Shown piece after piece: positions 16,245-64,000 of a stretch of 64,000 bases of DNA (positions within the stretch are counted from its first letter, which is position 1; each line of letters opens with the position of its first letter). The stretch is from Anaerolineales bacterium (lineage in GTDB: Bacteria > Chloroflexota > Anaerolineae > Anaerolineales > UBA4823): assembly GCA_003105035.1 (NCBI GenBank), contig PQAL01000037.1:9813-73812 (forward strand). The letters are read 5' to 3'. The notes below the pieces were generated by a model that was not told where the DNA came from, made no database searches, and saw only the letters and a program-made list of their open reading frames with translations. Made by a program: the position numbers and the translations under genes.

Positions 16245-16266
16245 ATGCTCCTTGTGCAACTCTTCT

Positions 16267-33966: not shown

Positions 33967-33980
33967 GGTATCGGACGACG

Positions 33981-36012: not shown

Positions 36013-36202
36013 TGGAAGCCAGATGACTCCCGTAGGTTTAAACGGCAGATGGAAAAGCGTTTACACTCCTGGCAATCACCACAAACAATCTGCGTGTACT
36101 GCAGACATCTGGATAGTTGGCAATGACTCAGAAGATTATTGATGAAGGTATGCCTCAATACATATGCCAGGAGATATATACCTTGCTAAAAATTGAGGAA
36201 AA

Positions 36203-37480: not shown

Positions 37481-37501
37481 TTTTTTTGAGGATGAAAAGA
37501 G

Positions 37502-38860: not shown

Positions 38861-38924
38861 AACCCAAATAATACTAATACCCCAATATATTACTCATCGA
38901 AAGGAATTAAATACAAAGAATTCA

Positions 38925-45001: not shown

Positions 45002-45997
45002 TCACCCCTTCTTCTTGTACTTTTTTAATTTATCGATAAGGATCGGCAGGAACTCTTGACAATCAGCCACGACACCAATATCCACCTTTTTAAAAACCGG
45101 TGATTTGGGATCGATATTAATGGCGAGCATGAATTTCGCCCCAGTCACGCCGACCATGTGCTGCTGTTCTCCGGATAAACCCACACCGATGTAGATCTCC
45201 GGCTTAACCATCTTCCCGCTCTGGCCGATCATGGTTTCGATTCCAGCCCAGCCAGCATCCACCACAGGCCTGGTCGAGCCAAGCCCTGCATCCAGCACAT
45301 TTGCCAACTCCACAATCTGCTCCCAACCAACCTGGTCTCCTGCCCCTGCTCCACCAGCTACAACCGTACGGGCTGATTCCAGATCCACACCTGTTTGTTC
45401 TTGGCGTACGATTTCCAGAATCTCGAGACGTGAAGTAATTTCTTCTGGAGGCTCGATCGTAATGATTTTCCCAGTGCGGTTTTTATCTACCGATGGTATC
45501 TGGAAGACACCCTGCGCTACCGTCGCCATTTGAGGTTTTCGCTCAGGGCAGACAATCGACATGAACCCTCCATAAGCCGGGATCTTTTGAACCAGATGCA
45601 TTTCTTGATCGAGTATCAGCTCTACGCAGTGAGCTGTCAGGCCAGTGCCCAGTTTAGCTGCCAGCAAGGGAGCTAACTCTCTCCCCATAAAGGTAGAGCC
45701 CAACAGCACGATTTCAGGGTTGTGTTTCTGGATTAGATCAACAAGGGTGGCAGTAAAAATCTGTGGGTGATAATCTCGAAAACAGGTATTATCACCTGCA
45801 TATATACAATCCGCACCTGCAGCAATCAGCTGATCGCATAAACCAGTAACTTTTTCACCCAACAGCACAGCATCAAGATGAGTTCCAAGTCCATCAGCTA
45901 AAGCCTTAGCCTTACCGATCAATTGAAGCGAGACTGGAAGCAGCTGTCCATTGATTTGTTCTGCAATCACCCATACCGGACTGTACTCTCGATTCAC
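45002..45997 (-). CDS. etfA: Electron transfer flavoprotein alpha subunit
   Basis: The 331-residue subunit has the FAD-binding C-terminal signature GQSGKMVKPEIYIGVGLSGE, QQHMVGV and MLAINIDPKSPVFKKVDIGV. It starts at an ATG overlapping the stop of EtfB (ATGA). It passes electrons from the acyl-CoA dehydrogenase two genes upstream to the quinone pool through an ETF:quinone oxidoreductase not found here, or takes part in bifurcation. Confidence 0.93.
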   Translation of the reverse strand: MNREYSPVWVIAEQINGQLLPVSLQLIGKAKALADGLGTHLDAVLLGEKVTGLCDQLIAAGADCIYAGDNTCFRDYHPQIFTATLVDLIQKHNPEIVLLGSTFMGRELAPLLAAKLGTGLTAHCVELILDQEMHLVQKIPAYGGFMSIVCPERKPQMATVAQGVFQIPSVDKNRTGKIITIEPPEEITSRLEILEIVRQEQTGVDLESARTVVAGGAGAGDQVGWEQIVELANVLDAGLGSTRPVVDAGWAGIETMIGQSGKMVKPEIYIGVGLSGEQQHMVGVTGAKFMLAINIDPKSPVFKKVDIGVVADCQEFLPILIDKLKKYKKKG

Positions 45998-46794
45998 TGC
46001 AGCACCCCCTTACGGACTAACACCTGGATTATACCTTCAGCTTTTTCATCCAAATTGCCTTCAATCATTTCACAAGCGCGTGTTTCTTCCAGATATTCCA
46101 GCTCAGTTACAATGGTTGGGGAACCTTTCTCTCCCACTTGCTCTGGTAGGAGTTCAAGATCATGGTAATTCAGTACACTAATCTGCTTATTACGTGCCTT
46201 AAGGATGCTCGAAAAACTAAGCGGCCTGGGAACGTTCAGCTCACGGGTGACGGTCACTACGGCCGGAAGCATCACTTTGACGATGCGATATCCACCTTCG
46301 ATGGACGCTTTTACGATCATATGAGTGGAAGAACTCTCCAGTATTTCTTTGACCATCGTTACCACGGGCCAATCCAAAAACATGGCCAGCTCAGGTCCCA
46401 CCCATTCTGTAGCCCCATCACTGCTCTCACGTCCGCAAAATACTAAATCGAAGGAGCCAAGTTTCTTAATCGCACACGCCAGTGTATATGCAGTAGCATA
46501 AGCATCTGCAGCCGCGAAAGCTGGATCAGAAAGCAAGTATCCATATTCTGCCCCATAGGCGAGGCACTCTATTACCACGTTTCCTGCTTCTGCAGGCCCC
46601 ATACTTATAACGGAGATCTCTACACCGAGCTTCGCTTTTAATTGAAGAGCAGCTTCCAAAGCATGTTTATCCAGCGGATTGATCACTAAGGGGATATCGA
46701 CCCTATTCAGCCTTTTAGTTTTAGGATCGATTCTTACTTTATCCGCCTTGTTCGGATCAGGTACAGCCTTTACACAAACTACAATTTTCAACAT
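45994..46794 (-). CDS. etfB: Electron transfer flavoprotein beta subunit
   Basis: The 266-residue subunit starts MLKIVVCVKAVPDPNKADKV and has DKHALEAALQLK, FDLVFCGRESSDGATEWVGP (AMP-binding part) and the C-terminal recognition loop region near LEYLEETRACEMIEG. It follows the acyl-CoA dehydrogenase after 81 nt and overlaps EtfA by 4 nt. Confidence 0.93.
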   Translation of the reverse strand: MLKIVVCVKAVPDPNKADKVRIDPKTKRLNRVDIPLVINPLDKHALEAALQLKAKLGVEISVISMGPAEAGNVVIECLAYGAEYGYLLSDPAFAAADAYATAYTLACAIKKLGSFDLVFCGRESSDGATEWVGPELAMFLDWPVVTMVKEILESSSTHMIVKASIEGGYRIVKVMLPAVVTVTRELNVPRPLSFSSILKARNKQISVLNYHDLELLPEQVGEKGSPTIVTELEYLEETRACEMIEGNLDEKAEGIIQVLVRKGVLQ

Positions 46795-48081: not shown

Positions 48082-49281
48082 TTATAAACCTACAGTTTTG
48101 ACAATCAATGCACAACCCTGGCCACCTTCTGCGCACAGGGTAGCTAATCCATATCTACCTGATACACCTTCCTGCTTACGATGTCTCATCTCATGCACCA
48201 GGGTCACTACGATCCGGCAGCCAGATGAGCCGACTGGATGACCTAAGGCGATTGCACCACCATTGACGTTGACCTTAGCCCAATCCCAACCAAGCACCGC
48301 GCCTACCGATAGAACCTGCCCGGCGAAAGCTTCGTTGACTTCAATCAAGTCCATGTCATCGAGCTTCAACCCAGCTTTTCTCAAAGCCCTGGGAACTGCA
48401 TATGCAGGAGCAATTCCCATGCGATGCGGCTCAACGCCAGCATAATCGTAAGCGACAATTTCTGCCATTGGAACATAACCCAGCTTTTCAGCCTTCTCAG
48501 CACTCATGATCAGCATCGCGCTGGCTCCATCTGAGATACTGCAGGCATTGGCGGGAGTGACCGTCCCATTATCTTTGAAGCTGGCTGGAGCTAGGCTAGC
48601 TTTTTCTATTGTCAATCCGGGATTTATCGTCTCATCCTGGTTGAGAATGATCTTTCCCTCTTTCTTCTTGAAGATTTCAACAGGAATCACCTCATCGTTA
48701 AAACGCCCATTACTGTGAGCCTGGAATGCCTTCTTATGGCTGTTTACGGCGAATTCATCCTGTTGTAGGCGGGTGAGGTTGAATTCCTCGACCAAGTTTT
48801 CAGCCGTGCGACCCATGATCTGCTCGCAATTGGGATCGGTCAATCCTTCCCATAAAGCATCTGTAAATTGTGCATGGCGAAGCTTCAATCCCCAACGAGC
48901 ACCTCTCACGAGATAAGGAATATTACTCATCGACTCGACCCCACCCACCAGGTATACCTCTCCATCCCCTGTCTGGATACTACGATAAGCCTGGATGATT
49001 GTATCCATACCTGATACGCAGTTACGGGCAACCGTATAAGCAGGGAGATCAATCGGTAGACCTGATTTCAAAGCAGCGACACGGGCAATATTGGGGGCAT
49101 CGCTCGATTGGAAAACACAACCAAAAATAATCTCATCGATAGTTGTTGGGTCAAGTTTAGTACGTTCCAATATACCCTTGACGACAAATTGGAGCAACGC
49201 TACTGCATCGTAATCTCGAAACATACCCCCTAGATTTCCCACAGGGGTTCGGACAGCATCAACAATGACAACTTCTTTCAT
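48082..49281 (-). CDS. Thiolase (acetyl-CoA C-acyltransferase)
   Basis: The 399-residue thiolase has the nucleophilic Cys near residue 88 (VARNCVSGMDTI), GGAIALGHPVGSSGCR with the catalytic His and a second Cys in LCAEGGQGCALIV, where most have CxGGGxG. The ATG at 49281 has GAGGAG 9 nt upstream; the ATG three codons earlier has no spacing. It should cleave a 3-oxoacyl-CoA to acetyl-CoA, or condense two acyl-CoAs. It lies directly upstream of the acyl-CoA dehydrogenase. Confidence 0.93.
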   Translation of the reverse strand: MKEVVIVDAVRTPVGNLGGMFRDYDAVALLQFVVKGILERTKLDPTTIDEIIFGCVFQSSDAPNIARVAALKSGLPIDLPAYTVARNCVSGMDTIIQAYRSIQTGDGEVYLVGGVESMSNIPYLVRGARWGLKLRHAQFTDALWEGLTDPNCEQIMGRTAENLVEEFNLTRLQQDEFAVNSHKKAFQAHSNGRFNDEVIPVEIFKKKEGKIILNQDETINPGLTIEKASLAPASFKDNGTVTPANACSISDGASAMLIMSAEKAEKLGYVPMAEIVAYDYAGVEPHRMGIAPAYAVPRALRKAGLKLDDMDLIEVNEAFAGQVLSVGAVLGWDWAKVNVNGGAIALGHPVGSSGCRIVVTLVHEMRHRKQEGVSGRYGLATLCAEGGQGCALIVKTVGL

Positions 49282-49359
49282 GGTATGCATCTCCTCAATC
49301 TTTTATTATCAATAATCTGCAATTCCTGAAATACTTATATTAGAATCCTTTTTTCTGTC

Positions 49360-50553
49360 CTAGCCATCGATCATGGCTTGATACACAGCCGTTCGGAAGT
49401 CATTGGTCACTTGGTAAGTCCCGCTGGGGATATATTGCATCATCAGGATGCCTACCAGCTGCTCTCTTGGATCAACCCAGAAATGCGTATTCGCCCAGCC
49501 TCCCCAGCCATGCAACCCGACCGAGCCCATCATACCTGACTGGGCGACGTCCATCATCACACTATACCCCAGGCCAAAGCCCATACCAGGCATAGGAGTT
49601 ATCCCCATGACAATGGGTAACAATGCTGCGTGCAAATGGTTGCAGGTCATGTACTCCACTATCTTGGTGCCCAACAGACGCACCCCTTCCAGCTCCCCTT
49701 TATTCAAAACGCATTGGGCAAAGCGGTAATAATCTGCCAAGGTTGACACCATGCCTGAACCACCCAGGTACAGCTTGGTCTTGAAATAATCTCCGCCGAT
49801 AGCCTCATCGAGGACTGCCAAATCGCTCTCTTTCCCCTTCCCGTATAATGTCGACAACCGCTTGACTTTACTAGATGTCACCAAAAAAGCCGTATCTTTC
49901 ATTCCCAGCGGTTTACACACCTTATCATTTATGAAATCAGGCAATGGAGAACCCGAAATGATTTCAATCAACCGACCAATAACATCCGTAGCCATGCTGT
50001 AAAGCCATTTAGACCCTGGTTGAAAAGCCAGGGGTAGTTCAGCTATGCGCAATACCATTTCTTCCAGGGTGATCGTTGGATCAAAAAGATTGGCCTGGTC
50101 ATACAGCTTATCCACCGGCAATCTCGTGTCTGCATACCCTCCATAACTGAGCCCGGCGGTGTGATCCAACAAATCATGTATCAGAATTTCACGGTCCAGA
50201 TCCAATAGACGGCCTGCCTCCCCAAGCACCTTGCATTTTTTAAACTGAGGGATATATTTACTTAGTGGATCTTCCAAGCGTACTAACCCGCGTTCGAAAA
50301 GCATCATGAGGGCAGTGCTGGTAATCGGCTTGGTCATCGAATAGATCCGGAAAATCGTGTCAATGCTTATGGGGATCTTACTGGCAATATCCTGGTAGCC
50401 ACACTTATCGAAATACACTATGTTACCCTTGCGTGCTACCAGGGTGACGAAGCCGGCAATTTTCCCCTCATCCACATAACGTTGCATGAATTCAGTAATG
50501 CGGGTTAACCTCTCGCCAGAAAAACCCATTTGTTCAGGATTGGCAAGCTTCAT
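49360..50553 (-). CDS. Class-C beta-lactamase-family serine hydrolase
   Basis: The 397-residue protein has the SxxK motif S72-M-T-K75 in IFRIYSMTKPITSTALMML, the Tyr region SKWLYSMATDVIGRL and an HGWGGWANTHFW motif near the C-terminus. There is no signal peptide, so it is a cytoplasmic esterase or amidase rather than a beta-lactamase. Within a CoA-ester cluster it may hydrolyse an ester, lactone or amide substrate. It follows the 4Fe-4S gene after 18 nt. Confidence 0.85.
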   Translation of the reverse strand: MKLANPEQMGFSGERLTRITEFMQRYVDEGKIAGFVTLVARKGNIVYFDKCGYQDIASKIPISIDTIFRIYSMTKPITSTALMMLFERGLVRLEDPLSKYIPQFKKCKVLGEAGRLLDLDREILIHDLLDHTAGLSYGGYADTRLPVDKLYDQANLFDPTITLEEMVLRIAELPLAFQPGSKWLYSMATDVIGRLIEIISGSPLPDFINDKVCKPLGMKDTAFLVTSSKVKRLSTLYGKGKESDLAVLDEAIGGDYFKTKLYLGGSGMVSTLADYYRFAQCVLNKGELEGVRLLGTKIVEYMTCNHLHAALLPIVMGITPMPGMGFGLGYSVMMDVAQSGMMGSVGLHGWGGWANTHFWVDPREQLVGILMMQYIPSGTYQVTNDFRTAVYQAMIDG

Positions 50554-50571: not shown

Positions 50572-51291
50572 TCATTTTCCTACCGGGCAGGCAAGCTCAC
50601 AAGCACGGCAGTAACGCACATGATCTGTGCTCGGGTCGCCTGGTAAAGGCCTGACATTGGCCTCATCTTTTTTCATCTGGAGCTCGCAATACTTGCGTTC
50701 ATAAAAGCCACTTCTGAACGCATTTTGTGGGCAGGCACGGTAACAAGGCTTGTCACAAGTCAAACACGGGTCAAAATCAAGCGGACTGGTCGCTTCAAGC
50801 TCAATTTCAAGGAACATAGCCCGCAGGCGAACCCTGGGACCGTATTCCCGGGAGATCAATAGATTATTCTTGCCGATAATTCCAATTCCGGCCAGTGAAG
50901 AAGCATCCTTGAGGAAAATCCCGCCTTCCTCGATCTTATATGGTAGCGAAATGGAATTGATCCCTAGCTCGTCTTTAAACCAGGCCTTTTGTTTTTTCTG
51001 GATCCTGATCAATGCCCGGTTTCCTGGGGTTCCACCCGGCTTCGGGTCCCACCAATCTAGCTCAGGTTCGCTTTTCTTATGCAGCAGGCCGAAAACCAGG
51101 ATCGATCTGGCCCCTTCCGGCCATTCGGGATAACTCGTGAAATAGGAATAATAAGGATTTTGGGCGTATTTTAAATACGAAGGCGATTTCTTTAGGTCAT
51201 CCACACGGGCGATGCCTGCCAGGCTCGCTCCAAACTCTTCAACTTGCTGGAGCATCTGCTCTCTGATAATTATTGATTTATTGATTGCCAT
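50572..51291 (-). CDS. 4Fe-4S double-cluster protein related to QueG/reductive-dehalogenase-type proteins
   Basis: This 239-residue protein has a C-terminal ferredoxin-like part, CLTCDKPCYRACPQNAFRSG, and a second set YCRACELACPVGK, giving two clusters. The N-terminal half (GARSILVFGLLHKKSEPELD, LPYKIEEGGIFLKDASSLAG, IIGKNNLLISREYGPRVRLRA) is that of epoxyqueuosine-reductase-like proteins. It is shorter than QueG and lacks its HEAT domain. It may feed electrons to a redox step of the cluster; the partner is unknown. Confidence 0.8.
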   Translation of the reverse strand: MAINKSIIIREQMLQQVEEFGASLAGIARVDDLKKSPSYLKYAQNPYYSYFTSYPEWPEGARSILVFGLLHKKSEPELDWWDPKPGGTPGNRALIRIQKKQKAWFKDELGINSISLPYKIEEGGIFLKDASSLAGIGIIGKNNLLISREYGPRVRLRAMFLEIELEATSPLDFDPCLTCDKPCYRACPQNAFRSGFYERKYCELQMKKDEANVRPLPGDPSTDHVRYCRACELACPVGK

Positions 51292-51312: not shown

Positions 51313-51756
51313 TCAACCTACGATCACCCGACCATCCTCGAGAATAGCAAGCTGGTCTCCAGATTGCACAGTCTGTAAAAATTCATCACCCAATTGATCA
51401 ATGGTTACAATCCGACTTCCTGCCCATAGATCAGCGATGATCAAGCCGCCTGCGGCGAGTGGATCGATGACCTGGGAGAACAATACAGCTATGGGAGCGA
51501 CCCCCAGCCTAGCGGTGCGCTGCCAGACTGCCCCAGCCGAAGTAGACCCTGTTGTCTTTGGAATGCATAGGATCTTCCCGTCCAGTCGCCTCCCAAATAG
51601 CTCCAGGTTCCCAGAATCAGCACAAACCGCAGATCGTGCACCCTCGCGAAGGCAATCATAGAAACTTGCATAAGCGTTAAATCCCATACGGCCGACCAAC
51701 GCCTCCCCCTGCAACATGCCGGATATAACGGCCCTGCCCTTGAAAGTTCTATCCAC
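51313..51756 (-). CDS. Aconitase X swivel (small) subunit, DUF126
   Basis: The 147-residue protein is the swivelling domain of two-subunit aconitase X enzymes: FKGRAVISGMLQGEALVG, DGKILCIPKTTGSTSAGAVWQ and LAAGGLIIADLW. It overlaps the large subunit by 8 nt, so the two are translated together. Known aconitase X dehydratases act on cis-3-hydroxy-L-proline (bacteria) or mevalonate 5-phosphate (archaea). The substrate here is open. Confidence 0.9.
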   Translation of the reverse strand: MDRTFKGRAVISGMLQGEALVGRMGFNAYASFYDCLREGARSAVCADSGNLELFGRRLDGKILCIPKTTGSTSAGAVWQRTARLGVAPIAVLFSQVIDPLAAGGLIIADLWAGSRIVTIDQLGDEFLQTVQSGDQLAILEDGRVIVG

Positions 51757-53071
51757 TTTGCCGCACTCCTGGAATTTCGCCGTTTACTATAACCCTGACA
51801 AGCTCTTCATCTGGAAAGTACCTGGCAGAGGTATAAGCCCTGAGCTTGTTAGAGTTGGTGATTACAGGTCTTCCGGTATAAAGACCGGTTTCAAAGACAG
51901 TTTCACAGCAGGTGGAGCTGAATTTTACTCCAGCCATTAAGATCCGCTGATAAGCCGCCTGATTTGCCTGGAATATTTCGATTACCTGTGGGGCCGCACA
52001 CATAAGGGTATCCACCGCCAAATGATCTCTTCTCTGGCTCGCTAACCCCTTCTCAATTTGATCTGCCCACCAATAGATCTGTCTCAAGCTGAGGTGGGGG
52101 CAACCGATGTAACACTTTTCCGGTTTTGCATGTGGATCGGCCCATAAGATTGGGAAGGAGCGCACCAACCGTTCAAGCGTGGAATCATTAATGACATAGG
52201 TTTTGTAATTGTCAGGTAGTAAGCCTCGACCCTGCTCAATCGCTTCGGGTGTGATTTTCTCCGCATGATAAAGGCTCACTGCGCTATAGGTAGCCAGCAT
52301 AGCCCCCATTTCCTGGAGGTAATCAGTGGTTATTTCATCCATTTCCGTTGAAAGAAAACGATCCAACCCAATCAGGTATGGGACGCCGGATAAAACCTTT
52401 AATCCGATTGCGCTCCCCAGCAGCTGGGGGTTCGGTAAACGCTGTGTTTCGATCTCAATCAACCAGTCAGCTCGTCGGCCTTCATCAGTCAGCAGACCTG
52501 CCAGGGGCGTTTTTCCAACAATATTCTGCAGCAGATCTATGATCGCCCCATTGCGGTTCGTTCGAGCACCCAATACAGAATTAGCATAGATGGCACAGGC
52601 TGATTCTGACCATGCCAGGATCATCCCTTTCTTGGGAATGTTGCTGACCTCGGGTAAATATGGGTAACACGAGTAGGCATCCCTATCTCGTAGTCCCAAT
52701 CTCAGCATCAGGGTGTCGTAATGTTCCTGCCCCGATAATAATTCCAGGATGGCGTCCTCAATCTTCGGATCAAGGTCTAAATTCTCAAAATCCAATGGCG
52801 ATCGCGGATCCAGGGTAAATGGATACTTTGTCTTCACACCGGCTGCTACAAGCTCTTCAAGCATTTCAACGGGTGGCGCAATACCGGCAATACACCAGGG
52901 AATCACCAGATGGCCTGGACCATTGATGTCGACCAGGCGTTCTGCCTGGAGTGCCTCTGCATACCTCACCACGGTTTCCATGACCTTCTGCATGGTGGCG
53001 CCTTGCACGCCTTGCAGAATTCCTAGCTCATCCTGCGATAGCCTGACATGGAGCTGGTCGAGGTCAATCAT
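51749..53071 (-). CDS. Aconitase X catalytic (large) subunit, DUF521
   Basis: The 440-residue protein from the ATG at 53071 (AAGGA upstream; an earlier TTG lies in the hydrolase gene) has the family's WSESACAIYANSVLGARTNR motif. Cysteine-bearing segments KCYIGCPHLSLRQIYWWAD and GVKFSSTCCETVFETGLY plausibly bind the iron-sulfur cluster. VITNSNKLRAYTSARYF near the C-terminus is conserved. With the small subunit it should dehydrate a hydroxy acid without redox. Its place between an alpha/beta hydrolase and a 4Fe-4S protein in a CoA-ester cluster is unlike the proline or mevalonate contexts I know. Confidence 0.88.
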   Translation of the reverse strand: MIDLDQLHVRLSQDELGILQGVQGATMQKVMETVVRYAEALQAERLVDINGPGHLVIPWCIAGIAPPVEMLEELVAAGVKTKYPFTLDPRSPLDFENLDLDPKIEDAILELLSGQEHYDTLMLRLGLRDRDAYSCYPYLPEVSNIPKKGMILAWSESACAIYANSVLGARTNRNGAIIDLLQNIVGKTPLAGLLTDEGRRADWLIEIETQRLPNPQLLGSAIGLKVLSGVPYLIGLDRFLSTEMDEITTDYLQEMGAMLATYSAVSLYHAEKITPEAIEQGRGLLPDNYKTYVINDSTLERLVRSFPILWADPHAKPEKCYIGCPHLSLRQIYWWADQIEKGLASQRRDHLAVDTLMCAAPQVIEIFQANQAAYQRILMAGVKFSSTCCETVFETGLYTGRPVITNSNKLRAYTSARYFPDEELVRVIVNGEIPGVRQSG

Positions 53072-53084
53072 CCAAAATTCCTTT

Positions 53085-54146
53085 TCACACAATGCTCTTC
53101 AGGTATTGGTGGAAGGCTGCATTGAAATCGTTCGGCTTTTCCAGGAAGGGTATATGGGCTGCATCCTGAATGACGACTTCTTGATAAGACCCACCAGCAG
53201 CTTGATATTTTTCAAGCACGGCTCTAATCTGGTCGATCATCGGTTGGGGAGGATAAACCTCATCTCCCGGCCAGCCTGGAATATAGCCCAGCTTTCCCAG
53301 GTATCCCACATCCGATAGCGACTGATTCGATATGACCTGATCCCGCTCTCCACGGATCCAAATCAATGGGATCTTGATCCGCCCATCATAGATCTGGTTA
53401 ACATCGCCCAGGTATTTGGGTGAAGTGGCATTTTGAGCGCCCCACACACCCGGTGCTATAAACGGCCAGTTGGGTGAAGAAACGAAATCTCCAGGGATGT
53501 CTTTATCGCCCAGGTGCACATTGAGGACTGAATCCAGTAGTTCTTCTTCTCTGGGTGGGATAAAACCAGGACTGAAGAGTGTACGCATACTCGCACGTGG
53601 TGAAGATGGGCTATCTAGACTGCGATCTTTTGCTCCAGCCCGTTTGATGAGTTCCATATTGCTGGTGCCACCTCCAGTGCCAGCATGATCAGCATAACAG
53701 GGAGTGCCAATTTCATCTTTCGTTCCGCTGAAGCCAAATGGGGAGCCGGGGCTCACCAGGGTAATGGATGAAATGCGCTGGGGATGATCCACCATGAGTT
53801 GCCAGACGATGAAACCACCCAGTGAACAGCCTACAATGTGGGCTTGATCAATTCCAAGATAATCAAGTAAAGCTATGGCATCATCCACCCAATCCCTAAC
53901 ACCCCGCGTGGCATCAATCTTCTTTTGCAGGTCTGCCTCACCATAACCCCGCTGATCTGGGGCAATGCTCCAAAATCCGGACGGAAGCGCCAGTATGGTC
54001 TGCTCCCACCAGGTAGCACAGGACCAGTTCCCGTGCAGGAACAAAACCGGAGCGCCTTTCCCTTGCCGGCTGAATAACACCCGGGTGGTGATCCTGTTTG
54101 TGGTAATGGTTTTTGCTTGAATACCTTCTAGAGTTGGAATGTTCAT
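53085..54146 (-). CDS. Alpha/beta hydrolase
   Basis: The 353-residue enzyme has oxyanion loop LFLHGNW, nucleophile elbow GCSLGGF with S108, the Asp region WIRGERDQVISNQS and catalytic His in IQDAAHIPFLEKP. No signal peptide; AAGGAG precedes the ATG. Probably hydrolyses an ester, lactone, thioester or C-C bond of the pathway substrate. It lies between the KAS III-like gene and aconitase X. Confidence 0.9.
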   Translation of the reverse strand: MNIPTLEGIQAKTITTNRITTRVLFSRQGKGAPVLFLHGNWSCATWWEQTILALPSGFWSIAPDQRGYGEADLQKKIDATRGVRDWVDDAIALLDYLGIDQAHIVGCSLGGFIVWQLMVDHPQRISSITLVSPGSPFGFSGTKDEIGTPCYADHAGTGGGTSNMELIKRAGAKDRSLDSPSSPRASMRTLFSPGFIPPREEELLDSVLNVHLGDKDIPGDFVSSPNWPFIAPGVWGAQNATSPKYLGDVNQIYDGRIKIPLIWIRGERDQVISNQSLSDVGYLGKLGYIPGWPGDEVYPPQPMIDQIRAVLEKYQAAGGSYQEVVIQDAAHIPFLEKPNDFNAAFHQYLKSIV

Positions 54147-54176: not shown

Positions 54177-55205
54177 TTAAGAAGCTCCCCATTTTACACA
54201 GGCAGCTCCCCACACATAGCCCACCCCGGCTGCCACGATAATCATTAAATCCCCATCCTTCAACTTACCTTGTTTCTGCCCCTCAATGATGTTGATGATG
54301 CTATCTTGCTCGCCTGAATGGCCGTAAGTGTCATTGTAGACTCCTTGCGCCTCGGTCAATCCAAGCAGCAGGAGCATCTCTTTGTAGGAAGAAGGCTTAA
54401 CCAAGATCATATTGAGAAAATCCAGGTCGCTGCGATTATATCCACTCTTTCTCAAGGCCTGATCGATGCAGTACAACCAGTTTTTCATGGAAACCTGGTT
54501 GAGACGCTCCTTCATCTTTTCCATGTCAAATACTTCGATCTTGAAAAGCCCTTTGGCTACTGCTTCATCCGTGGGGTGTTGCAGGGTCCCGCTGGCTGGC
54601 ACGACAATATTCCTGCTCAGGCAGCCATCAGTCATCAAGTGGCTGCCCAGAATGTGATTGGATGGCCAATCCCTCTTGATCAGCATTGCACCAGCACCAG
54701 CCCCCAGGTTGAAGGCGAAGCTGGTGCGCGTATTTTTCAAGTTGACGAAATCTCCCGCCCGGTAACCACCCGCAATCAGAACGGTGTTAATATCCGGATC
54801 AGAATACATCATATTCTTGGCCAGCTTGAGAGCGCTGATGGTTGTGCAACAACGCATGTGGATATCCATCGCCCAGGCTTTTTTCGCTCCAATCTGGTAT
54901 GCCAGGTCGATCCCCGCTGTCCAATTTATGTATTCTTTCCACTCCTCGGTCGTGCACAGCACCAGGTCAATCTCGTCTAGAGAAATATCGGTCTTTGATA
55001 AGCAATCCCTGGTTGCCCAGACGGCCATCTGGTTGGGCTGTTCCTCGGGTTCAGCCATGCGTTTTTCAGTAATGCCGAATTTCTCGCGGATCACCGATTC
55101 CTCAATTCCGCTCTCGTCTGCAATATCAGCAGCAGTGACAATATGATTGGGCAGATACATGCCCACACTGACAATTCCAGCTGAGAATCGGTTTTTCGCT
55201 GACAT
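54177..55205 (-). CDS. KAS III/FabH-like thiolase-fold protein with altered triad
   Basis: The 342-residue protein has the KAS III architecture: GIVSVGMYLPNHIVTAADIA, EESVIREKFGITEKRMAEPE and an active-site Cys in AMDIHMRCCTTISALKLA (C119). The His-bearing HQAN motif is replaced by LVKPSSYKEMLLLLGL and the GNTSAAS Asn motif by YGHSGEQDSI. So Cys is kept but the His and Asn are not at the usual places. It is unlikely to be a standard fatty-acid initiator. ATG 55205 is preferred over the GTG three codons upstream (AAGGTGAT spacing). It may catalyse an acyl transfer between CoA esters. Confidence 0.85.
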   Translation of the reverse strand: MSAKNRFSAGIVSVGMYLPNHIVTAADIADESGIEESVIREKFGITEKRMAEPEEQPNQMAVWATRDCLSKTDISLDEIDLVLCTTEEWKEYINWTAGIDLAYQIGAKKAWAMDIHMRCCTTISALKLAKNMMYSDPDINTVLIAGGYRAGDFVNLKNTRTSFAFNLGAGAGAMLIKRDWPSNHILGSHLMTDGCLSRNIVVPASGTLQHPTDEAVAKGLFKIEVFDMEKMKERLNQVSMKNWLYCIDQALRKSGYNRSDLDFLNMILVKPSSYKEMLLLLGLTEAQGVYNDTYGHSGEQDSIINIIEGQKQGKLKDGDLMIIVAAGVGYVWGAACVKWGAS

Positions 55206-55220
55206 CCTAATCACCTTGCC

Positions 55221-55979
55221 CTAAGTACCGACCACCAGGCCACCATCCACTCTCAAGACTGCTCCAGTGATAAAGCTAGCCTCATCCGATGCCAGGAAAA
55301 CATACGCATTGGCAACCTCGGAAGGCAGCCCGAAACGCCCCAGCGGCTGGTGCTTCCTAAATTCTGCCAGGATATTTTCAGGCATGCTTTGCAACATATC
55401 AGTCATAATCGATCCTGGTGCTATTGCATTAACCCGGATGCTATACCGGCCTAATTCGCGTGCCCAAACTTTGGTCATACCCACCACGCCGGCTTTGGAA
55501 GCTACATAATTGGTCTGGCCGAAGTTGCCATCCAGGCCAACCACAGAAGAAGAGTTCACGATCGAACCTGACCCCTGGCGGATCATGTACGGGGCTACCG
55601 CCTGGGTGCAATTGAATACGCCTTTTAGATTGATCGCAATGACCGCGTCAAAGGCCTCCTGTGACATCTGACTGACCAGCTGACCATCTTTGAATTTTAC
55701 TAATTGGCTGTCTTTGAGAATACCAGCGTTATTGATCAGGATATCGATCCTGCCTGATTTCCTGGCAGCCTCATCCACCCATGTTTGCACTGAACTCCGG
55801 TCGGAGACATCAACAATCGAGAAAGTGCAGCCCAGTTCGCTGGCTGTTGCCTCTCCCGCTGTTTCATTGATATCACAGATGAATACGCTGGCCCCCTGTT
55901 GGACAAAGGCTTTCGCAGTTGCCTTACCAATTCCAGCAGCACCACCTGTGATCAATGCCACCTTATCTTTGAGTCTCAT
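55221..55979 (-). CDS. Short-chain dehydrogenase/reductase (FabG-like)
   Basis: The 252-residue classical SDR has ITGGAAGIGKATAKAF, INNAG and the Ser-Tyr-Lys set in SIVNSSSVVG and GQTNYVASKAG. The C-terminal FLASDEASFITGAVLRVDGG is typical of FabG. It should oxidise or reduce a 3-hydroxy/3-oxo intermediate with NAD(P). It overlaps the acyl-CoA synthetase 2 gene by 4 nt. Confidence 0.93.
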   Translation of the reverse strand: MRLKDKVALITGGAAGIGKATAKAFVQQGASVFICDINETAGEATASELGCTFSIVDVSDRSSVQTWVDEAARKSGRIDILINNAGILKDSQLVKFKDGQLVSQMSQEAFDAVIAINLKGVFNCTQAVAPYMIRQGSGSIVNSSSVVGLDGNFGQTNYVASKAGVVGMTKVWARELGRYSIRVNAIAPGSIMTDMLQSMPENILAEFRKHQPLGRFGLPSEVANAYVFLASDEASFITGAVLRVDGGLVVGT

Positions 55980-57535
55980 GGTTTTTCCTCTTGCTTGTCA
56001 TTTTTAGATTTAACAAGTTTTTCGACTAACAATTTTTTATCCACCTTATTGGCGCCTGTTTTAGGCAGCTGGTTGAGAAAGATGACCGACTTTGGTACTT
56101 TGTAATGCGCCAGCCGATCTTTCATCCATTTGATCAGCCCTTCATCATTTAGTGTGCTATGTGGTTGCAGCACAACCACTGCACAACCCACTTCACCCCA
56201 TTTGGAATCTGGCATAGGGATGACCGCGGCTTCCAGGATGTCCGGGTGGCTATGCAGGATGTCCTCAATTTCAGCGGGATATATATTTTCACCCCCCGAT
56301 TTGATCATGTTTTTCAGCCGGCCGACGATATAGTAACAATTATCCTCATCCATTCTTGCGAGATCACCCGTATGAAGCCATCCATCCTCCAAAACAGCTT
56401 CGGTGGCCATCGGGTTTTTCCAATAACCTCCGAACACATGCGGGCCGCGCACCATCAGCTCGCCCACCTGATTAGCGCCCAATAGATTCCCACTGTCATT
56501 AACTATTTTTACGTCAACATGGAACAACGGCCGTCCCACAGATCCGATCTTATTTTTTGCCACTTCATTTGGCAACCAGAAGGTATTCGGGCCTGCTTCT
56601 GTCAGTCCATACCCCTCCTTGAATTCCACACCCTTCTTCCAAAAGGCCTCATAAACCACTCTCGGACAATTGCCACCGCCAGCCATCACCAAGCGCACCC
56701 TAGAAAGGTCCAATGACTCCCAGCGCGGGTGCTGGATCATTGCCAGCAGCATGACGGGCACACCAAAGAAAAAGGTTATTCCAAGCCCTTCGATCTGGTT
56801 GAAGATTCGATCAACATCAAATCCCTTGCATAGTATGGTCGTGCCGCCTACGTACACGATCGGCTGCATCATCACATTGATCCCACCGGTGTGGAACATC
56901 GGCATGTAATGGGGTACGATATCATCTGGCCGCAACCCCCAGCTAACCACGGTATTGATTGAGTTCCAGGTCAGTGAACGGTAATTCAGGATTGCACCCT
57001 TCGGAAGACCAGTTGTCCCACCTGTATAGCAAATAATCCACGGATCCTCCCAATCCAGCTCCACAGGTTCCGGCTGGGTCTCCGGCCACCTTCCAGCTTC
57101 CTCCAGCCAGGAGATATCACCGGTTCGTTGTGGTTGGCCAAGACAAATAAGCTTGGGTTCAGGTTTAACCCTTTGCCAGATCTGCTCGACCTGTGCTGTC
57201 CACTCAGGACCATACATCAATACTTTAGGTTCAAAATCGGTAATCAGTCTCCCAATCTCACCCGCCGTAAGGCGCCAATTAATCACCTGCAAAATTGCCC
57301 CTAACTTGTTACAGGCAAAGATCGTATCCAGATATTCCATCCGGTTCAAAGAATAAATGCAGATACGATCTCCATTTCCGATCCCGAGTGCCTGCTGGAA
57401 AAAGTTCGCCATACGATTAACCCGGTGATTCCAGAGTTGATAAGTAATTTCCAGGTTTCCATGCTCAGCATCAATGAGAGCTATCTTGTCGGGTGACAAC
57501 AACTCCCTTCGATATAGCCAATCACCAAAAAACAT
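55976..57535 (-). CDS. Acyl-CoA synthetase (AMP-forming) 2
   Basis: The 519-residue ANL enzyme starts at 57535, where TAGGAGG lies 5 nt upstream; the longer frame would overlap the HpaB-family gene. Motifs: IICYTGGTTGLPKGA, EGYGLTEAGPNTFW, DGWLHTGDLARMDEDNCYYI, RLKNMIKSGGENIYPAEIED and LPKTGANKVDKKLL with the catalytic lysine. It differs clearly from synthetase 1, so two different acids are probably activated. It follows the HpaB-like gene by 22 nt. Confidence 0.92.
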   Translation of the reverse strand: MFFGDWLYRRELLSPDKIALIDAEHGNLEITYQLWNHRVNRMANFFQQALGIGNGDRICIYSLNRMEYLDTIFACNKLGAILQVINWRLTAGEIGRLITDFEPKVLMYGPEWTAQVEQIWQRVKPEPKLICLGQPQRTGDISWLEEAGRWPETQPEPVELDWEDPWIICYTGGTTGLPKGAILNYRSLTWNSINTVVSWGLRPDDIVPHYMPMFHTGGINVMMQPIVYVGGTTILCKGFDVDRIFNQIEGLGITFFFGVPVMLLAMIQHPRWESLDLSRVRLVMAGGGNCPRVVYEAFWKKGVEFKEGYGLTEAGPNTFWLPNEVAKNKIGSVGRPLFHVDVKIVNDSGNLLGANQVGELMVRGPHVFGGYWKNPMATEAVLEDGWLHTGDLARMDEDNCYYIVGRLKNMIKSGGENIYPAEIEDILHSHPDILEAAVIPMPDSKWGEVGCAVVVLQPHSTLNDEGLIKWMKDRLAHYKVPKSVIFLNQLPKTGANKVDKKLLVEKLVKSKNDKQEEKP

Positions 57536-57557
57536 GCATCCTCCTACTTGACCATAT

Positions 57558-59018
57558 CTACTTTTGAGGCTCTGGAACAGCTTCTTCAATGCCCATCAAG
57601 GCTTTGGCATATTCGACATATTCCTCGAAAGGTGTGTTGAAGCGCACAATCAACCTGGCACCATCCGGCGAACCCCCTCCGTGCATACAGCCAGGCACAC
57701 CTCCACCAATAGTCAACCATTCTGCTAAGCGTGCACTTCTATAACGAGTTTCAGCACTGACAGGCCCAGCTTTATAATATTTTTGGAGGATTTTTCCATA
57801 TCGCTCATCGGTAAAATCCTCATAGGAAGGCATGCAGCCTGTTTCTACCATCCCACCACCGATCTCCTGCGTAAGGCGCTTGGTTTCATAAGGTAAAGTC
57901 GCTACCATGACCTTGTTCGTATGGGCAGTGAGCGGGTCGGCGAAAAAGGATCCGGAAGGATGCTGGGTGCCCAGTGCACATGCGCCAACACCCAGTCCAT
58001 AGGTGACCTGGTTATTGATGGACATATCGACCAGCTTATTCATAAAGGTTTTAGATGGCAGTCCATTAGCGCGTGCCACCAATACGGATGCGCCGATCAT
58101 CACGTCTCCCTGTCCGGATACACACGCACCAATACAAGCCCGGTAATTAGCGGTGAAGAATTGGATAAACTTACCAGTGTACTTGGCCTCTCCACACATA
58201 AAGACCCGTTCATTGGGGACGAAAACATCGTCAAATAATAAAAGTCCTTGCGTAATCCCTGTCCTCGGAACCTCGCCTTCAGCATACTCTCCCAGATCGC
58301 GCTGGTCACTCGGACGGGTGGCTTCAATAATGGTCAAGCCCTCGATATCACGCGGTACAACGCAGCACAACGAATAATCCTTCTCGGACTCCTGGTAAGC
58401 ACCGCCCGGAAGCAAAAATATTTCATTGGAGGCTGCAACCCCACAGATCATCAGCTTTGCGCCTCGAATGATAATGCCATCGCTTCGAATTTCCTTTATC
58501 CGCAGATTTACATCCGGGTCTGCTTGCTGGGAGGGTTTCAAGCTACGGTCGCCTTTTGCATCCGTGAGTGCACCCGCGACGACCAGACCATTAGCCTGGG
58601 CAGTCAGAATCCATGCTTTCAATCGTTCATGATATTGGGTGCCATATTCGGCATCCATATCCTGGGTGATTGCCCACATCACGTTTTGGGCATTCCAGCC
58701 AACACATACCCCTCCGGTACAGCTGCCCGTTCTCCGGTAGTTCTGCCGCTTCATTTTCATATTGGAGATCAGGTCGTCCGCGCTATTCATCATCGAATTC
58801 CAGCGATGGATTTTTTCACCGGTGAAAGATGACTTCGTGGTGTAGATATCGGCTAATTGGGGTTCATCTGCTGCGTCAAAATTACGGGCGTGGCTTTCGA
58901 CTGTGCGTTTTGTGGCAGGATGCTGGGTAACATCGGTGATTAATTGCCCAAATTTATAGATGTTCGGCTTCAGCTTCTTGAGCGATTCCAAATATTCGTG
59001 GCGGGTTTTCAGGGTCAT
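57558..59018 (-). CDS. HpaB-family flavoprotein (4-hydroxyphenylacetate hydroxylase / 4-hydroxybutyryl-CoA dehydratase-like)
   Basis: The 486-residue protein has the HpaB fold: the N-terminal EYLESLKKLKPNIYKFG, central acyl-CoA-dehydrogenase-like FAD part (LFDDVFVPNERVFMCGEA, GQGDVMIGASVLVARANGL) and the C-terminal helical bundle. 4-Hydroxybutyryl-CoA dehydratase binds a 4Fe-4S cluster through Cys99, Cys103, His292 and Cys299. Here C100 and C105 (SCTGGVC), C295 and C299 (YRACIGAC) are present, but position 292 is Tyr. So a cluster is possible but the ligand set is not standard. Monooxygenase or dehydratase/isomerase roles are both open. It starts the enzyme part of the cluster, next to the importer. 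Confidence 0.8.
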   Translation of the reverse strand: MTLKTRHEYLESLKKLKPNIYKFGQLITDVTQHPATKRTVESHARNFDAADEPQLADIYTTKSSFTGEKIHRWNSMMNSADDLISNMKMKRQNYRRTGSCTGGVCVGWNAQNVMWAITQDMDAEYGTQYHERLKAWILTAQANGLVVAGALTDAKGDRSLKPSQQADPDVNLRIKEIRSDGIIIRGAKLMICGVAASNEIFLLPGGAYQESEKDYSLCCVVPRDIEGLTIIEATRPSDQRDLGEYAEGEVPRTGITQGLLLFDDVFVPNERVFMCGEAKYTGKFIQFFTANYRACIGACVSGQGDVMIGASVLVARANGLPSKTFMNKLVDMSINNQVTYGLGVGACALGTQHPSGSFFADPLTAHTNKVMVATLPYETKRLTQEIGGGMVETGCMPSYEDFTDERYGKILQKYYKAGPVSAETRYRSARLAEWLTIGGGVPGCMHGGGSPDGARLIVRFNTPFEEYVEYAKALMGIEEAVPEPQK

Positions 59019-59051: not shown

Positions 59052-60110
59052 TCATTGTGATTGAACATATAAGCACGCAACCTGATGCTCTGAAGTCACT
59101 TTAACATAATCAGGATCGACTTCCCTACAATCATTATGTGCAACCGGACAGCGAGGATGGAAACGGCATCCGGGTGGCACATTTATAGGATTTGGGACTT
59201 CACCACTCAGGATCACCCTTTCGCGTTGCCTACGCGGGTTTGGCGCAGGTAGCACAGAAACCAATGCGCGGGTATAAGGGTGTTGGGGATTTGCCAAGAC
59301 TTCCTTTGTTGGCCCTAGCTCAACAATCCTTCCCAGATACATCACTGCGATTCGGTCGGTAAATATCCCTGCGGTTGCCAGATCATGGGTCGTGTAAATA
59401 ATCGTGATATTCCTTTTATTGCGCAGATCCAGCAATAAAGTTAAGAATTCGGCGCGGATGGAGACATCCAACATAGACACAGGTTCATCCGCGATCAATA
59501 GCTGTGGCTCGAGCACCAGTGCTCCGGCGATGACCACTCGTTGGCGCTGCCCGCCGGAAAGCCCATCGGGATACCTGCCCCAAAAATGATCTGCCGGGGC
59601 CAAACCGCTGGATTCCAAAGAGACCCTCACACGTTCCATCCGATCACTTTCCGAAAGCGATATTCCATGGATGTCTAGGGGTTCAGCGACGATCTCAAGT
59701 ATTTTCTGCCTGGGATCCAGTGATTCATAAGGGTCCTGGAAGACCATTTGAGCACGTTTTCTGAGAAGCAGGATCTGCTCACGCTTGTTCAATTTTGCCA
59801 GATCAACATTAACGGGATCATTTAAATCGCCAATCCTTCCCTGACTCCAATATGCTATATCGATTCCATCAAAGAGGATCTTTCCTTTGCTGGGTATCTG
59901 GAGACCTAATATATTCATTCCGACAGTCGTCTTCCCTGAACCAGATTCTCCCACCAGAGCTAAAATCTCTCCCTTATCTAGGGTAAAACTCACATCATCC
60001 ACGGCGTGAACTACTTTTGGTGGTTTGCGAGTCATTCGCGAAACGAGAGATTGCGAGATGGGAAAATATTTATATAAATTGATTACACTCAATAGCGTAG
60101 AGTCAGGCAT
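59052..60110 (-). CDS. ABC transporter ATP-binding protein, DppF type
   Basis: The 352-residue ATPase starts at the ATG at 60110, overlapping the DppD-type gene by 8 nt. The longer frame to 60311 adds 67 residues read out of frame through that gene. Motifs: Walker A GESGSGKT, signature LSGGQRQRV, Walker B LLIADEPVSMLD, THDLA and the C-terminal oligo_HPY part PPGCRFHPRCPVAHNDC. Together with the two upstream transporter genes it forms an oligopeptide-type importer. Confidence 0.93.
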   Translation of the reverse strand: MPDSTLLSVINLYKYFPISQSLVSRMTRKPPKVVHAVDDVSFTLDKGEILALVGESGSGKTTVGMNILGLQIPSKGKILFDGIDIAYWSQGRIGDLNDPVNVDLAKLNKREQILLLRKRAQMVFQDPYESLDPRQKILEIVAEPLDIHGISLSESDRMERVRVSLESSGLAPADHFWGRYPDGLSGGQRQRVVIAGALVLEPQLLIADEPVSMLDVSIRAEFLTLLLDLRNKRNITIIYTTHDLATAGIFTDRIAVMYLGRIVELGPTKEVLANPQHPYTRALVSVLPAPNPRRQRERVILSGEVPNPINVPPGCRFHPRCPVAHNDCREVDPDYVKVTSEHQVACLYVQSQ

Positions 60111-61089
60111 TTTGAATCCCGGATTGTTTCTGGTCGAATAAATGGCAGGCAATTGAATGATGCTGAGGGAATTCAACCAGCCGAGGTGGTTCCTGGCTAC
60201 ACAGATCCATGACCAGGTTACAGCGCGGGCTAAAACGGCAACCAGGGGGAAGATCATCCAAGCGTGGAGGAACTCCTGGAATAGAGACAAGTTCCGCAGT
60301 GAGATTGTCAATATCTGGGAAGGCTTTCAATAATCGCTGGGTATATGGGTGTTTGGCCTCGTTATAGATTATGTCACTTGAGGCGTATTCCGCCACCTTT
60401 CCGCCGTACATCACCAGTACATCATCACATAACTCAGCCACCACACCCAGGTCATGCGTGACCAGGATCAAAGCCAGATTCAGCTCACGCTGCAGTTTCT
60501 TTAGCAGCTGGGTTATCTGGGCCTGGATCATCACATCTAGAGCGGTGGTTGGCTCATCTGCGATCAATATTTTAGGATTGCACGATAAAGCCATGGCAAT
60601 AATTGCCCTCTGGCGCATCCCACCACTATACTGGTGAGGATATTGCTTAGCCCGTTCAGGGGCAATTCCAACCAAACTGAGTAGTTCGCCAGTCCTTTCA
60701 CGCGCTTCCCTTTTTGTTTTTACCTGTTTATGCTTCAGTAATGCCTCAACGATCTGGCTTTCAACCGTCCTCACAGGGTTGAGCGAATTCATCGCTCCCT
60801 GAAATACCATTGAAATTTCACCCCAGCGGACCTGACGCATTTGATCTTCGCTGATTTGAAGCAGATCGGTATGATTAAACAGAACCTGACCGTCAATAAT
60901 CCGCCCCTCATCGGGAAGCAACCGCATCAGTGCCAGGATGATGGTCGTCTTTCCACAACCACTTTCTCCGACGATCCCAAGCGAACAACCTGCCTCAAGC
61001 TTAAAACTAACCCTTTCAACCGCATTCAGGGCGGTATCCTCTTCGGTGAGGTAACAGATGGAGAGATTCTTGACATCCAGAATAGTCAT
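60103..61089 (-). CDS. ABC transporter ATP-binding protein, DppD type
   Basis: The 328-residue ATPase has Walker A GESGCGKT (41-48), signature YSGGMRQRA, Walker [18 protein letters not shown] and the Cys-rich C-terminus PPGCRFSPRCNLVMDLC. It overlaps the fused permease gene by 4 nt and the next ATPase by 8 nt. Confidence 0.93.
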   Translation of the reverse strand: MTILDVKNLSICYLTEEDTALNAVERVSFKLEAGCSLGIVGESGCGKTTIILALMRLLPDEGRIIDGQVLFNHTDLLQISEDQMRQVRWGEISMVFQGAMNSLNPVRTVESQIVEALLKHKQVKTKREARERTGELLSLVGIAPERAKQYPHQYSGGMRQRAIIAMALSCNPKILIADEPTTALDVMIQAQITQLLKKLQRELNLALILVTHDLGVVAELCDDVLVMYGGKVAEYASSDIIYNEAKHPYTQRLLKAFPDIDNLTAELVSIPGVPPRLDDLPPGCRFSPRCNLVMDLCSQEPPRLVEFPQHHSIACHLFDQKQSGIQNA

Positions 61090-63282: not shown

Positions 63283-64000
63283 TTATTCGACTGGTTTAGC
63301 CTGAATAATTGACCATTTACCAAACAAATAGTTGGTATCGGGACTGAAACCAGTAAAGCGATCCGTGCGATACGCCGAAATCACGCTGTTATACAGCAAT
63401 ACAATCCAGGGTCGCTCGTTATAGATCTTTTCCTGCATCTGCTTGACGATATTGATCCGATCCTGCTTATTTAATGCCGTTCGTGAAGAGTTATAAAGTG
63501 TATCGTAATCTGCATTGCAATAGCCGGAATCATTCCAATAACCGATCTGGCCACAAGCAAATACTGTATTAAAGAAATCTGGATCCGGATCTCCACCCCA
63601 TAACCAATAGGTGAGATCGTAGTCATAATCGGTAAATACCTTGGTTAATTGCGTGTTGTAATCCACAGTCTCGATATCGATCGTAATACCTGCTTGAGCA
63701 AATCCATTCTTTATGATTTCAGCTAGACGGGCACTTGAAGCCTGGTTATCGATTAAGAATCGGTATTTCAGATCAGAGCCATCCGACCATTCCCGCACGC
63801 CATCGCCATTTGTGTCTTTATACCCTGCCTCATCTAAGGTTTGATTAGCCTTGTCTATATCAAACGAGATAGTCTGAACATCACTGTTATGCCAATCTAC
63901 CAATACCGGGGCAATATAAGTGGTCGCAGGAGTGTTGTAGCCCAGGAAAACAACATCATTGATTTGTTCACGATCAGTGGCATATTCCATGGCCTTGCGT
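63283..64000 (-). CDS. C-terminal part of an oligopeptide-type substrate-binding protein, cut by the window edge
   Basis: The frame is open to the window end; the visible 238 residues begin RKAMEYATDREQINDVVFLG, the conserved middle of family 5 binding proteins. They continue with DIDKANQTLDEAGYKDTNGDG, ARLAEIIKNGFAQAGITIDIE, YWLWGGDPDPDFF and the C-terminal RINIVKQMQEKIYNERPWIVLLYNSVISAYR. The N-terminus and signal peptide lie beyond 64000. It supplies the substrate to the fused permease and two ATPases downstream. Confidence 0.92.
   Translation of the reverse strand, partial: RKAMEYATDREQINDVVFLGYNTPATTYIAPVLVDWHNSDVQTISFDIDKANQTLDEAGYKDTNGDGVREWSDGSDLKYRFLIDNQASSARLAEIIKNGFAQAGITIDIETVDYNTQLTKVFTDYDYDLTYWLWGGDPDPDFFNTVFACGQIGYWNDSGYCNADYDTLYNSSRTALNKQDRINIVKQMQEKIYNERPWIVLLYNSVISAYRTDRFTGFSPDTNYLFGKWSIIQAKPVE

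Follow-up and report, generated by a model that had tools for sequence, protein, structure and literature searches.

The two-subunit aconitase X (AcnX) encoded on the minus strand at positions 51313-53071 of the stretch studied here, 64,000 nucleotides (nt) of an Anaerolineales bacterium genome (GTDB UBA4823; assembly GCA_003105035.1, contig PQAL01000037.1, positions 9,813 to 73,812; hereafter, the window), belongs to a distinct AcnX subfamily. We consider it fairly likely that the two subunits together make up a heterodimeric [4Fe-4S] dehydratase that would act on a free beta-hydroxy acid and feed enoate reduction or coenzyme A (CoA)-dependent breakdown, and its natural substrate is probably a third one, beyond both known AcnX substrates. 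For reference, two earlier studies describe AcnX as having two proven reactions and several bacterial types of no known function (PMC10040528, PMC8184944). The two genes are as follows:

51749-53071, minus strand: AcnX large subunit (domains 1-3), 440 amino acids from the ATG at 53071; PF04412
51313-51756, minus strand: AcnX small subunit (domain 4), 147 amino acids from a GTG start; PF01989

Both subunits matched their Pfam models above the cut-offs (large, E = 4.6e-75, 253 bits vs. a cut-off of 31.5; small, E = 1.2e-9, 38 bits vs. a cut-off of 27), and alignment shows that the Ser base, Glu, Ser, Lys and Tyr shared by the two solved structures are kept, which places the pair in the AcnX family. 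Domain 4 is encoded by a separate gene adjoining the large-subunit gene, i.e., the type II (two-subunit) layout, and the two genes overlap by exactly 8 nt (51749-51756), just as the original prediction, made from the sequence alone, had described. The large-subunit open reading frame (ORF) spans 51749-53092 (minus strand), opening at a TTG at 53092; the ATG at 53071 matches the end coordinate of that prediction.

In a tree of 57 rows (IQ-TREE, LG+C20+F+G4), the window protein groups with 11 relatives (50-66% identity) in a core clade that has 100/99 support. This clade, together with four far rows (Rhodococcus opacus L058, and L072, L073 and L074), splits with 100/100 support from all other included rows, that is, type I, Thermococcus kodakarensis (Tk) 7CNR, the Chloroflexota copies and other plasmid types, and the branch separating core and far rows is the longest inner branch of the tree. 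The long-ended rows L064, L065 and L073 are unsurely placed according to an IQ-TREE warning. The Tk 7CNR row covers residues 3-297 only, and all comparisons are with types I and IIb, since the set (and the tree) holds no characterised type IIa sequence. Excluded were L075, L077, L079 and L085 (same genes as L007, L010, L014 and L030, respectively) and the truncated L026; the partial L035 and L047 were kept out as well, and L104-L106 were fetched after the tree was built. The original prediction had proposed such a placement as a check, and window AcnX neither clusters with the hydroxyproline dehydratases nor joins the type IIb grouping (Tk 7CNR and the UbiD-linked copies). Judged by its sequence, window AcnX is neither of the characterised types (I, hydroxyproline dehydratase; IIb, mevalonate-5-phosphate dehydratase). 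The subfamily may be one of types IIc-IIf, which Watanabe 2021 (PMC8184944) describes as bacterial, two-subunit and devoid of the landmark residues of either known activity; it resembles them in all three respects. An AcnX of unknown substrate is itself not new, since types IIc-IIf were already published with no known function; what is added here is a defined subfamily and its gene context.

The active-site comparison with types I and IIb, also proposed originally, gave a consistent picture: the catalytic residues are kept and the substrate landmarks of both types are lost. Residues were mapped by alignment onto 7CNR (L074 was excluded from the small-subunit alignment), using substrate contacts given for structures 7CNR/7CNS and 7CNP/7CNQ in PMC8184944. 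In the window large subunit, Cys135, Cys324 and Cys388 are the predicted [4Fe-4S] ligands and Glu156, Ser157, Lys409 and Tyr413 the predicted catalytic set, accompanied by an invariant Asp88; in the small subunit, Ser71 is the predicted general base and Thr72 a predicted carboxylate contact. Cys is present at sites A and B in 16/16 subfamily rows and at site 1 in 15/16, the equivalents of Glu129, Ser130, Lys361 and Tyr365 in 16/16, and, among 15 small-subunit rows, the base Ser in 14 and the carboxylate Thr in 14 (Ser in L073). A [4Fe-4S] cluster has been shown in the Aeropyrum enzyme, with the same cysteine pattern (PMC10040528). Since the catalytic residues and cluster Cys are kept, removal of water from, or its addition to, a beta-hydroxy acid is likely retained by the subfamily. 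In the positions that contact the rest of the substrate, the type IIb phosphate loop AGVSYKN is lost (the window reads VIPWCI there), and window AcnX does not have the type IIb phosphate-binding set (Gly48-Val49-Ser50, Asn53 and Asn79), the Asn79/Asn233 position being Asp in 11/11 core rows covering the column and in 3/4 far rows. Both type I landmarks, Asp203 and the third Cys (CxC), are absent from window AcnX, the Ser131 position is Ala in 12/12 core rows, and the core small subunits carry an added, subfamily-specific segment, Phe-Asn-x-Tyr-Ala-Ser-Phe (FN-x-Y-A-S-F). With the phosphate loop and Asp203 gone and Asp at the Asn79 position, the subfamily probably does not bind, in the manner of the known enzymes, a substrate whose tail is a phosphate or a proline ring; a pocket that is acidic and rich in aromatic residues might instead accommodate an amine or another donor group.

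The gene neighbourhood of the subfamily is also distinct and recurring. One scan of a genome collection gave 12 relative loci, which, combined with the class-search loci and after removal of duplicates, make 14 distinct core loci, the window included (L040 and L046, on the same contigs as L033 and L034, were dropped before counting; L099, a fragment whose position suggests the L047 contig, is uncounted). These were compared to 20 control AcnX loci (17 hand-picked Chloroflexota loci, a second copy from the source genome and two plasmid loci) by tblastn at 1e-15, with at least half of the query covered (40% for TetR), within fetched regions averaging 16.0 kb for core and 18.0 kb for control loci; the region fetched for the window was extended to 32 kb so as to include TetR, and several contigs are short. 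An Opp-type transporter was found in 9/14 core vs. 1/20 control loci, a CoA ligase or transferase in 8/14 vs. 1/20, a thiolase in 5/14 vs. 2/20 and an acyl-CoA dehydrogenase in 3/14 vs. 1/20. Further, an MttB or URO-D/MtaA-like methyltransferase (6/14, of which four MttB-type), an S12 hydrolase (5/14), a 4Fe-4S protein (5/14), a short-chain dehydrogenase/reductase (SDR; 4/14), TetR (4/14), a class III aminotransferase (3/14), a corrinoid protein (3/14), an old yellow enzyme (OYE; 2/14) and an HpaB-family dehydratase (1/14, the window) were each found in 0/20 controls. Among seven far loci, OYE (2/7) and SDR (2/7) were the only counted markers found. The marker families are broad enough for the zero counts in controls to mean something. 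The tree, the loss of both landmark sets and this neighbourhood agree with each other, in line with the original proposal that a new dehydratase substrate is plausible.

As a rival explanation, the enzyme could be a divergent mevalonate 5-phosphate dehydratase working in the modified mevalonate pathway, which would account for several features that the subfamily shares with type IIb (Aeropyrum pernix; Tk 7CNR/7CNS), i.e., the two subunits, the three [4Fe-4S] Cys positions (sites A, 1 and B, all present in window AcnX), the Ser base, Glu, Lys, Tyr and carboxylate contacts, and 7CNR being the best PDB match of window AcnX. We nonetheless regard this explanation as extremely unlikely, given the lost phosphate loop, the Asn79 to Asp change, the added small-subunit segment, the very long supported branch between the two and the lack of UbiD neighbours (0/14 core vs. 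8/20 control loci, with a UbiD query from the second copy mentioned above); no UbiD-type or hydroxyproline gene was seen beside window AcnX among the ORFs by eye and by tblastn with one UbiD query. Moreover, the second of the two AcnX genes of the source genome, on contig C5 and 34% identical to window AcnX, retains every checked phosphomevalonate dehydratase landmark in alignment and adjoins a UbiD-family decarboxylase, so the mevalonate role in this genome looks taken. The original statement that mevalonate and proline neighbour genes are missing is accurate locally but not for mevalonate at the genome level, and the mevalonate-type copy elsewhere in the genome strengthens, rather than weakens, the argument for a new substrate.

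The C5 locus deserves mention on its own: a canonical phosphomevalonate-dehydratase-type AcnX pair directly behind a UbiD-family decarboxylase in a Chloroflexota genome (C5:181231-184241; L036 8232-11242). Of the eight control loci with UbiD in the fetched region, C5 included, seven have it adjacent and one (L079) 7 kb off on the opposite strand. This arrangement looks like the modified mevalonate pathway, which PMC10040528 describes as unique to archaea.

A hydroxyproline dehydratase role is very unlikely. The sole NCBIfam match of the large subunit is to the model of that enzyme family, at 140 bits vs. a cut-off of 700. The check for a matching reductase found one OCD/mu-crystallin gene in the genome, on contig C38 and not beside AcnX, a family that includes the proline-pathway reductase, and MttB-type methyltransferases could first demethylate proline betaine. 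Type I shares with the subfamily the fold family, the Ser base, Glu, Lys, Tyr and two Cys; it is far from it in the tree, however, and the subfamily has two chains, a third Cys at the aconitase-like site 1 instead of the type I CxC position, and no Asp203, as opposed to the one fused chain, [2Fe-2S] cluster, CxC site and nitrogen-contacting Asp203 (for the proline ring) that PMC8184944 gives for type I. Further, no proline racemase or hydroxyproline gene was noticed by eye (no model search) in the window or the core loci, unlike type I loci L059-L061. A DapA-like ORF lies at 15318-16286, 35 kb from window AcnX.

The AcnX pair is part of a same-strand (minus) gene run that extends from the right window edge to 43411, with several genes touching or overlapping, and that is presumably transcribed as a whole. 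The transporter, binding protein, thiolase, acyl-CoA dehydrogenase, electron transfer flavoprotein (ETF) subunits EtfB and EtfA, and last acyl-CoA ligase were named by eye and by homology to genes of other AcnX loci. From the right edge, the order is:

63283-63999, minus strand: substrate-binding protein, family by eye, running off the window; groups with its counterparts at other AcnX loci
59052-63218, minus strand: Opp-type ABC transporter, by eye, with ATPases at 59052-60311 and 60103-61089 and a fused permease at 61086-63218 (homologous, 35%, to OppB of L039)
57558-59018, minus strand: HpaB-family enzyme (PF11794 and PF03241); nearest PDB entry 4-hydroxybutyryl-CoA dehydratase 1U8V (phmmer E = 7.9e-92)
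55976-57589, minus strand: AMP-forming acyl-CoA ligase (PF00501, E = 2.4e-82)
55221-55979, minus strand: SDR oxidoreductase (PF13561, E = 6.5e-70)
54177-55214, minus strand: KAS III/HMG-CoA-synthase-like protein of the PRK06840 family (NCBIfam NF005308, 417 bits, cut-off 315)
53085-54146, minus strand: alpha/beta hydrolase, 353 amino acids (PF00561, E = 3.7e-22); a 62% homologue is also beside AcnX in L038
51313-53071, minus strand: AcnX large, then AcnX small, as above
50572-51291, minus strand: 4Fe-4S protein, 239 amino acids, distantly like QueG and reductive dehalogenases, two cluster motifs by eye
49360-50553, minus strand: S12 hydrolase of the serine beta-lactamase fold (PF00144, E = 7.6e-62); homologues beside AcnX in four further core loci
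48082-49290, minus strand: thiolase, by eye; homologues beside AcnX in L033, L034, L043 (Pfam-confirmed) and L044
46876-48024, minus strand: acyl-CoA dehydrogenase, by eye; homologues in L035 and L045
45002-46794, minus strand: EtfB (45994-46794) and EtfA (45002-45997), by eye; homologues in L035
43411-44997, minus strand: second acyl-CoA ligase, the final gene of the run, by eye; homologues in L033 and L042
C37:74942-75526, just outside the window, same strand as the run: TetR gene (PF00440)

The ligases, thiolase and acyl-CoA dehydrogenase/ETF of this run bear out the CoA-ester context claimed originally, and the alpha/beta hydrolase flank is confirmed by its Pfam match. The QueG-like 4Fe-4S flank holds in part: the protein (homologues in L039, L043, L044 and L045) is a distant relative, but QueG identity was dropped, the matches being far under the cut-offs (40 of 200 bits for the QueG model, 33 of 160 bits for the reductive-dehalogenase model), and no Pfam model scored above its cut-off. 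The TetR protein is 61%, 52% (partial) and 49% identical to AcnX-adjacent TetRs of L035, L037 and L045, respectively. The HpaB-family enzyme keeps the ligand Cys positions of 1U8V with one residue inserted between the first two, but a Tyr aligns with the ligand His292. Elsewhere in the window, at 30180-40034, reading by eye shows a second Opp-type transporter run and, after it, two FAD-dependent oxidoreductases and a class V-like aminotransferase.

A dehydrate-then-reduce module is hinted at most strongly by OYE-type Fe-S ene-reductase genes located directly upstream of AcnX in four loci (L045 and L048 of the core, L074 and L106 of the far group), which represent two separate OYE groups in the same order beside AcnX. 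In L045 and L048, the end of the OYE-type gene overlaps, or lies within 25 nt of, the AcnX large-subunit start; in L074 and L106, a different OYE, 34% identical to the former ones (68% between these two), occupies the same place. All four carry a C-x2-C-x3-C...C motif and resemble BaiCD/bilirubin-reductase models, under the cut-off. In the scheme we favor, for which we infer the reaction direction, free-acid level, step order and substrate, a substrate of the form R-CH(OH)-CH2-COO-, free rather than CoA-bound, would be supplied by the Opp-type transporter together with a hydrolase of esters or lactones. The small-subunit Ser71 would take the C2 proton and the open iron of a cluster held by Cys135, Cys324 and Cys388 would bind the C3 hydroxyl, with Glu156 and Lys409 assisting and Thr72, Ser157, Lys409 and Tyr413 holding the carboxylate, to give a 2-enoate. 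The latter would probably be reduced by the adjacent OYE-type enzyme in some relatives and, in the window, probably be esterified by a CoA ligase of the run and passed to acyl-CoA dehydrogenase/ETF, SDR and thiolase; the acyl-CoA dehydrogenase and ETF could do either reduction or oxidation after CoA ligation.

Alternatively, the reaction might run in reverse, with AcnX hydrating a 2-enoate to a beta-hydroxy acid and the SDR oxidising that to a beta-keto acid, which would be activated by a CoA ligase or transferase and cleaved by thiolase (a CoA-late beta-oxidation). We judge this somewhat unlikely. L043 and L044 combine AcnX with a thiolase, an SDR, a CoA transferase and a 4Fe-4S protein, and these classes are also present in the window, where ligases take the place of the transferase; and the hydration direction is real for AcnX, as the phosphomevalonate dehydratase assay ran from the enoate to mevalonate 5-phosphate (PMC10040528). 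The OYE-type ene-reductases directly upstream in four loci, however, suit enoate reduction, not hydration, and the substrate of the SDR is not readable from sequence.

Several observations weigh against the free beta-hydroxy acid dehydratase that we favor. The site 1 Cys is replaced by Arg in L073, and the base Ser by Thr in L042. No OYE homologue was found in the window genome at 1e-20, although this search was without a positive control and shows little. Most marker queries came from core loci, the controls were hand-picked and the loci are related, making the neighbour p-values optimistic. Lastly, the neighbour sets vary by locus and the far group has other settings (sugar-kinase-type genes in L105 and a DASS-type transporter in L072, by eye), which makes a single substrate for the whole subfamily unlikely.

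A more specific possibility, which we consider quite unlikely, is that the core subfamily represents a third AcnX activity, the CoA-independent dehydration of carnitine or a carnitine-type C4 acid, that is, 3-hydroxy-4-trimethylammonio-butanoate, its demethylated forms down to 4-amino-3-hydroxybutanoate, or the 4-hydroxy analogue. If true, crotonobetaine or an analogue would arise straight from the free acid, replacing CaiD, with a link to MttB-type demethylation, enoate reduction and breakdown of the gamma-aminobutyrate (GABA)/4-hydroxybutyryl-CoA type. The hint lies in methylated-amine genes near AcnX. In L034 and L039, a single run contains AcnX large, a class III aminotransferase, a corrinoid protein, an MttB-type protein, a 3-hydroxyacyl-CoA-dehydrogenase-family protein and AcnX small; an MttB-type gene adjoins AcnX on the opposite strand in L042; and three MttB-type genes occur in L048 along with a BCCT-family transporter and an MtgC-like corrinoid protein. 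Genes resembling SoxA/SoxB and homocysteine methyltransferase, all under cut-off, are found in L045, and one of four MttB-type proteins scanned (from L048) passes the TIGR02369 cut-off. In addition, the closeness of the window HpaB enzyme to 4-hydroxybutyryl-CoA dehydratase and the GABA-type aminotransferases of relatives point to C4-substituted C4 chains. In L035 and L037, DUF169 genes are accompanied by URO-D-family genes whose best models are of the MtaA/CmuA type, under cut-off (152 of 235 bits in L037; assigned by 69% identity in L035), and counting these apart from MttB-type genes slightly lowered our estimate for the carnitine-type activity. DUF169 and URO-D-family (MtaA/CmuA-like) proteins thus neighbor each other twice near AcnX (L035 16347-18327 and L037 7044-8937).

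MttB genes were found in the fetched regions of 4/14 core vs. 0/20 control loci. For the 13 core loci of known gene density, 0.91 were expected and four seen (P = 0.008 under independence; MttB genes cluster, so their positions are not independent). Against the carnitine-type activity, MttB is common, being present in 12/12 other genomes tested (one a single weak match) and in 199/392 class genomes, which makes genome-level presence weak evidence; it is near AcnX in only the four core loci and in 0/7 far loci, and the far settings differ. The source genome has ten MttB genes, all away from window AcnX, and tblastn of the region found none near it. These include MttB-type genes on C38 (L092), C24 (L093), C18 (L097) and C43 (L096), which form arrays on C38 and C24 and have corrinoid proteins or an Opp-type transporter as neighbours (by eye); the neighbours of one MttB on C43 are Rieske-oxygenase-like and long FAD-oxidoreductase-like genes (by eye).

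The known systems for comparison are cai and bbu. The ligase/transferase, acyl-CoA dehydrogenase, ETF (a member of the cai system), 4Fe-4S protein and BCCT transporter (the last in L048) are partly found again here, as is the logic of dehydration plus reduction. Known carnitine reduction involves dehydration of L-carnitinyl-CoA by CaiD (PMC8604678), and the bbu cluster comprises an acyl-CoA dehydrogenase, CoA transferases, a di-4Fe-4S ferredoxin and a betaine/carnitine/choline transporter (PMC8364193). CaiD thus acts on a CoA ester, whereas AcnX would act on the free acid. No report linking AcnX to quaternary amines was found among the matches listed in the open-access literature.

The subfamily is rare. 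Relatives of at least 60% identity occur in 4/396 class genomes (own genome counted; two of the four on contigs cutting the gene), and, at E 1e-100, matches numbered 4/340 (two already known) and 2/396 (one known) in the first two sets and 2/56 (one known, one probably L047), 1/2 (known) and 3/148 (one known) in further ones. The hosts include Chloroflexota, Desulfobacterales/Deltaproteobacteria and Actinomycetota, and a far relative is on a human-faecal scaffold. Another far relative, at 42% identity, is carried by Rhodococcus opacus PD630. Viral-contig scans gave no relatives, and a phage collection gave one match, MT837347.1 (L106), labelled 'Bacteriophage sp.' and UNVERIFIED. We rejected a phage origin for it, the genes looking bacterial by eye, and treated it as a mislabelled, probably bacterial, scaffold from human faeces, with OYE, AcnX large and AcnX small at 366-4200. 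In L073 (7692-10853), AcnX large has a twin-arginine-like signal (by eye), and an SDR close by has a signal of the same kind; this AcnX is perhaps an exported Fe-S dehydratase.

In conclusion, an uncharacterised branch of AcnX now has a defined membership, an intact active site, altered substrate positions and a recurring gene neighbourhood. The pairing with ene-reductases suggests a module that dehydrates and reduces free acids, and, if the carnitine-type activity were true, the branch would give access without CoA to crotonobetaine and gamma-butyrobetaine, two compounds of importance in anaerobic quaternary-amine metabolism.

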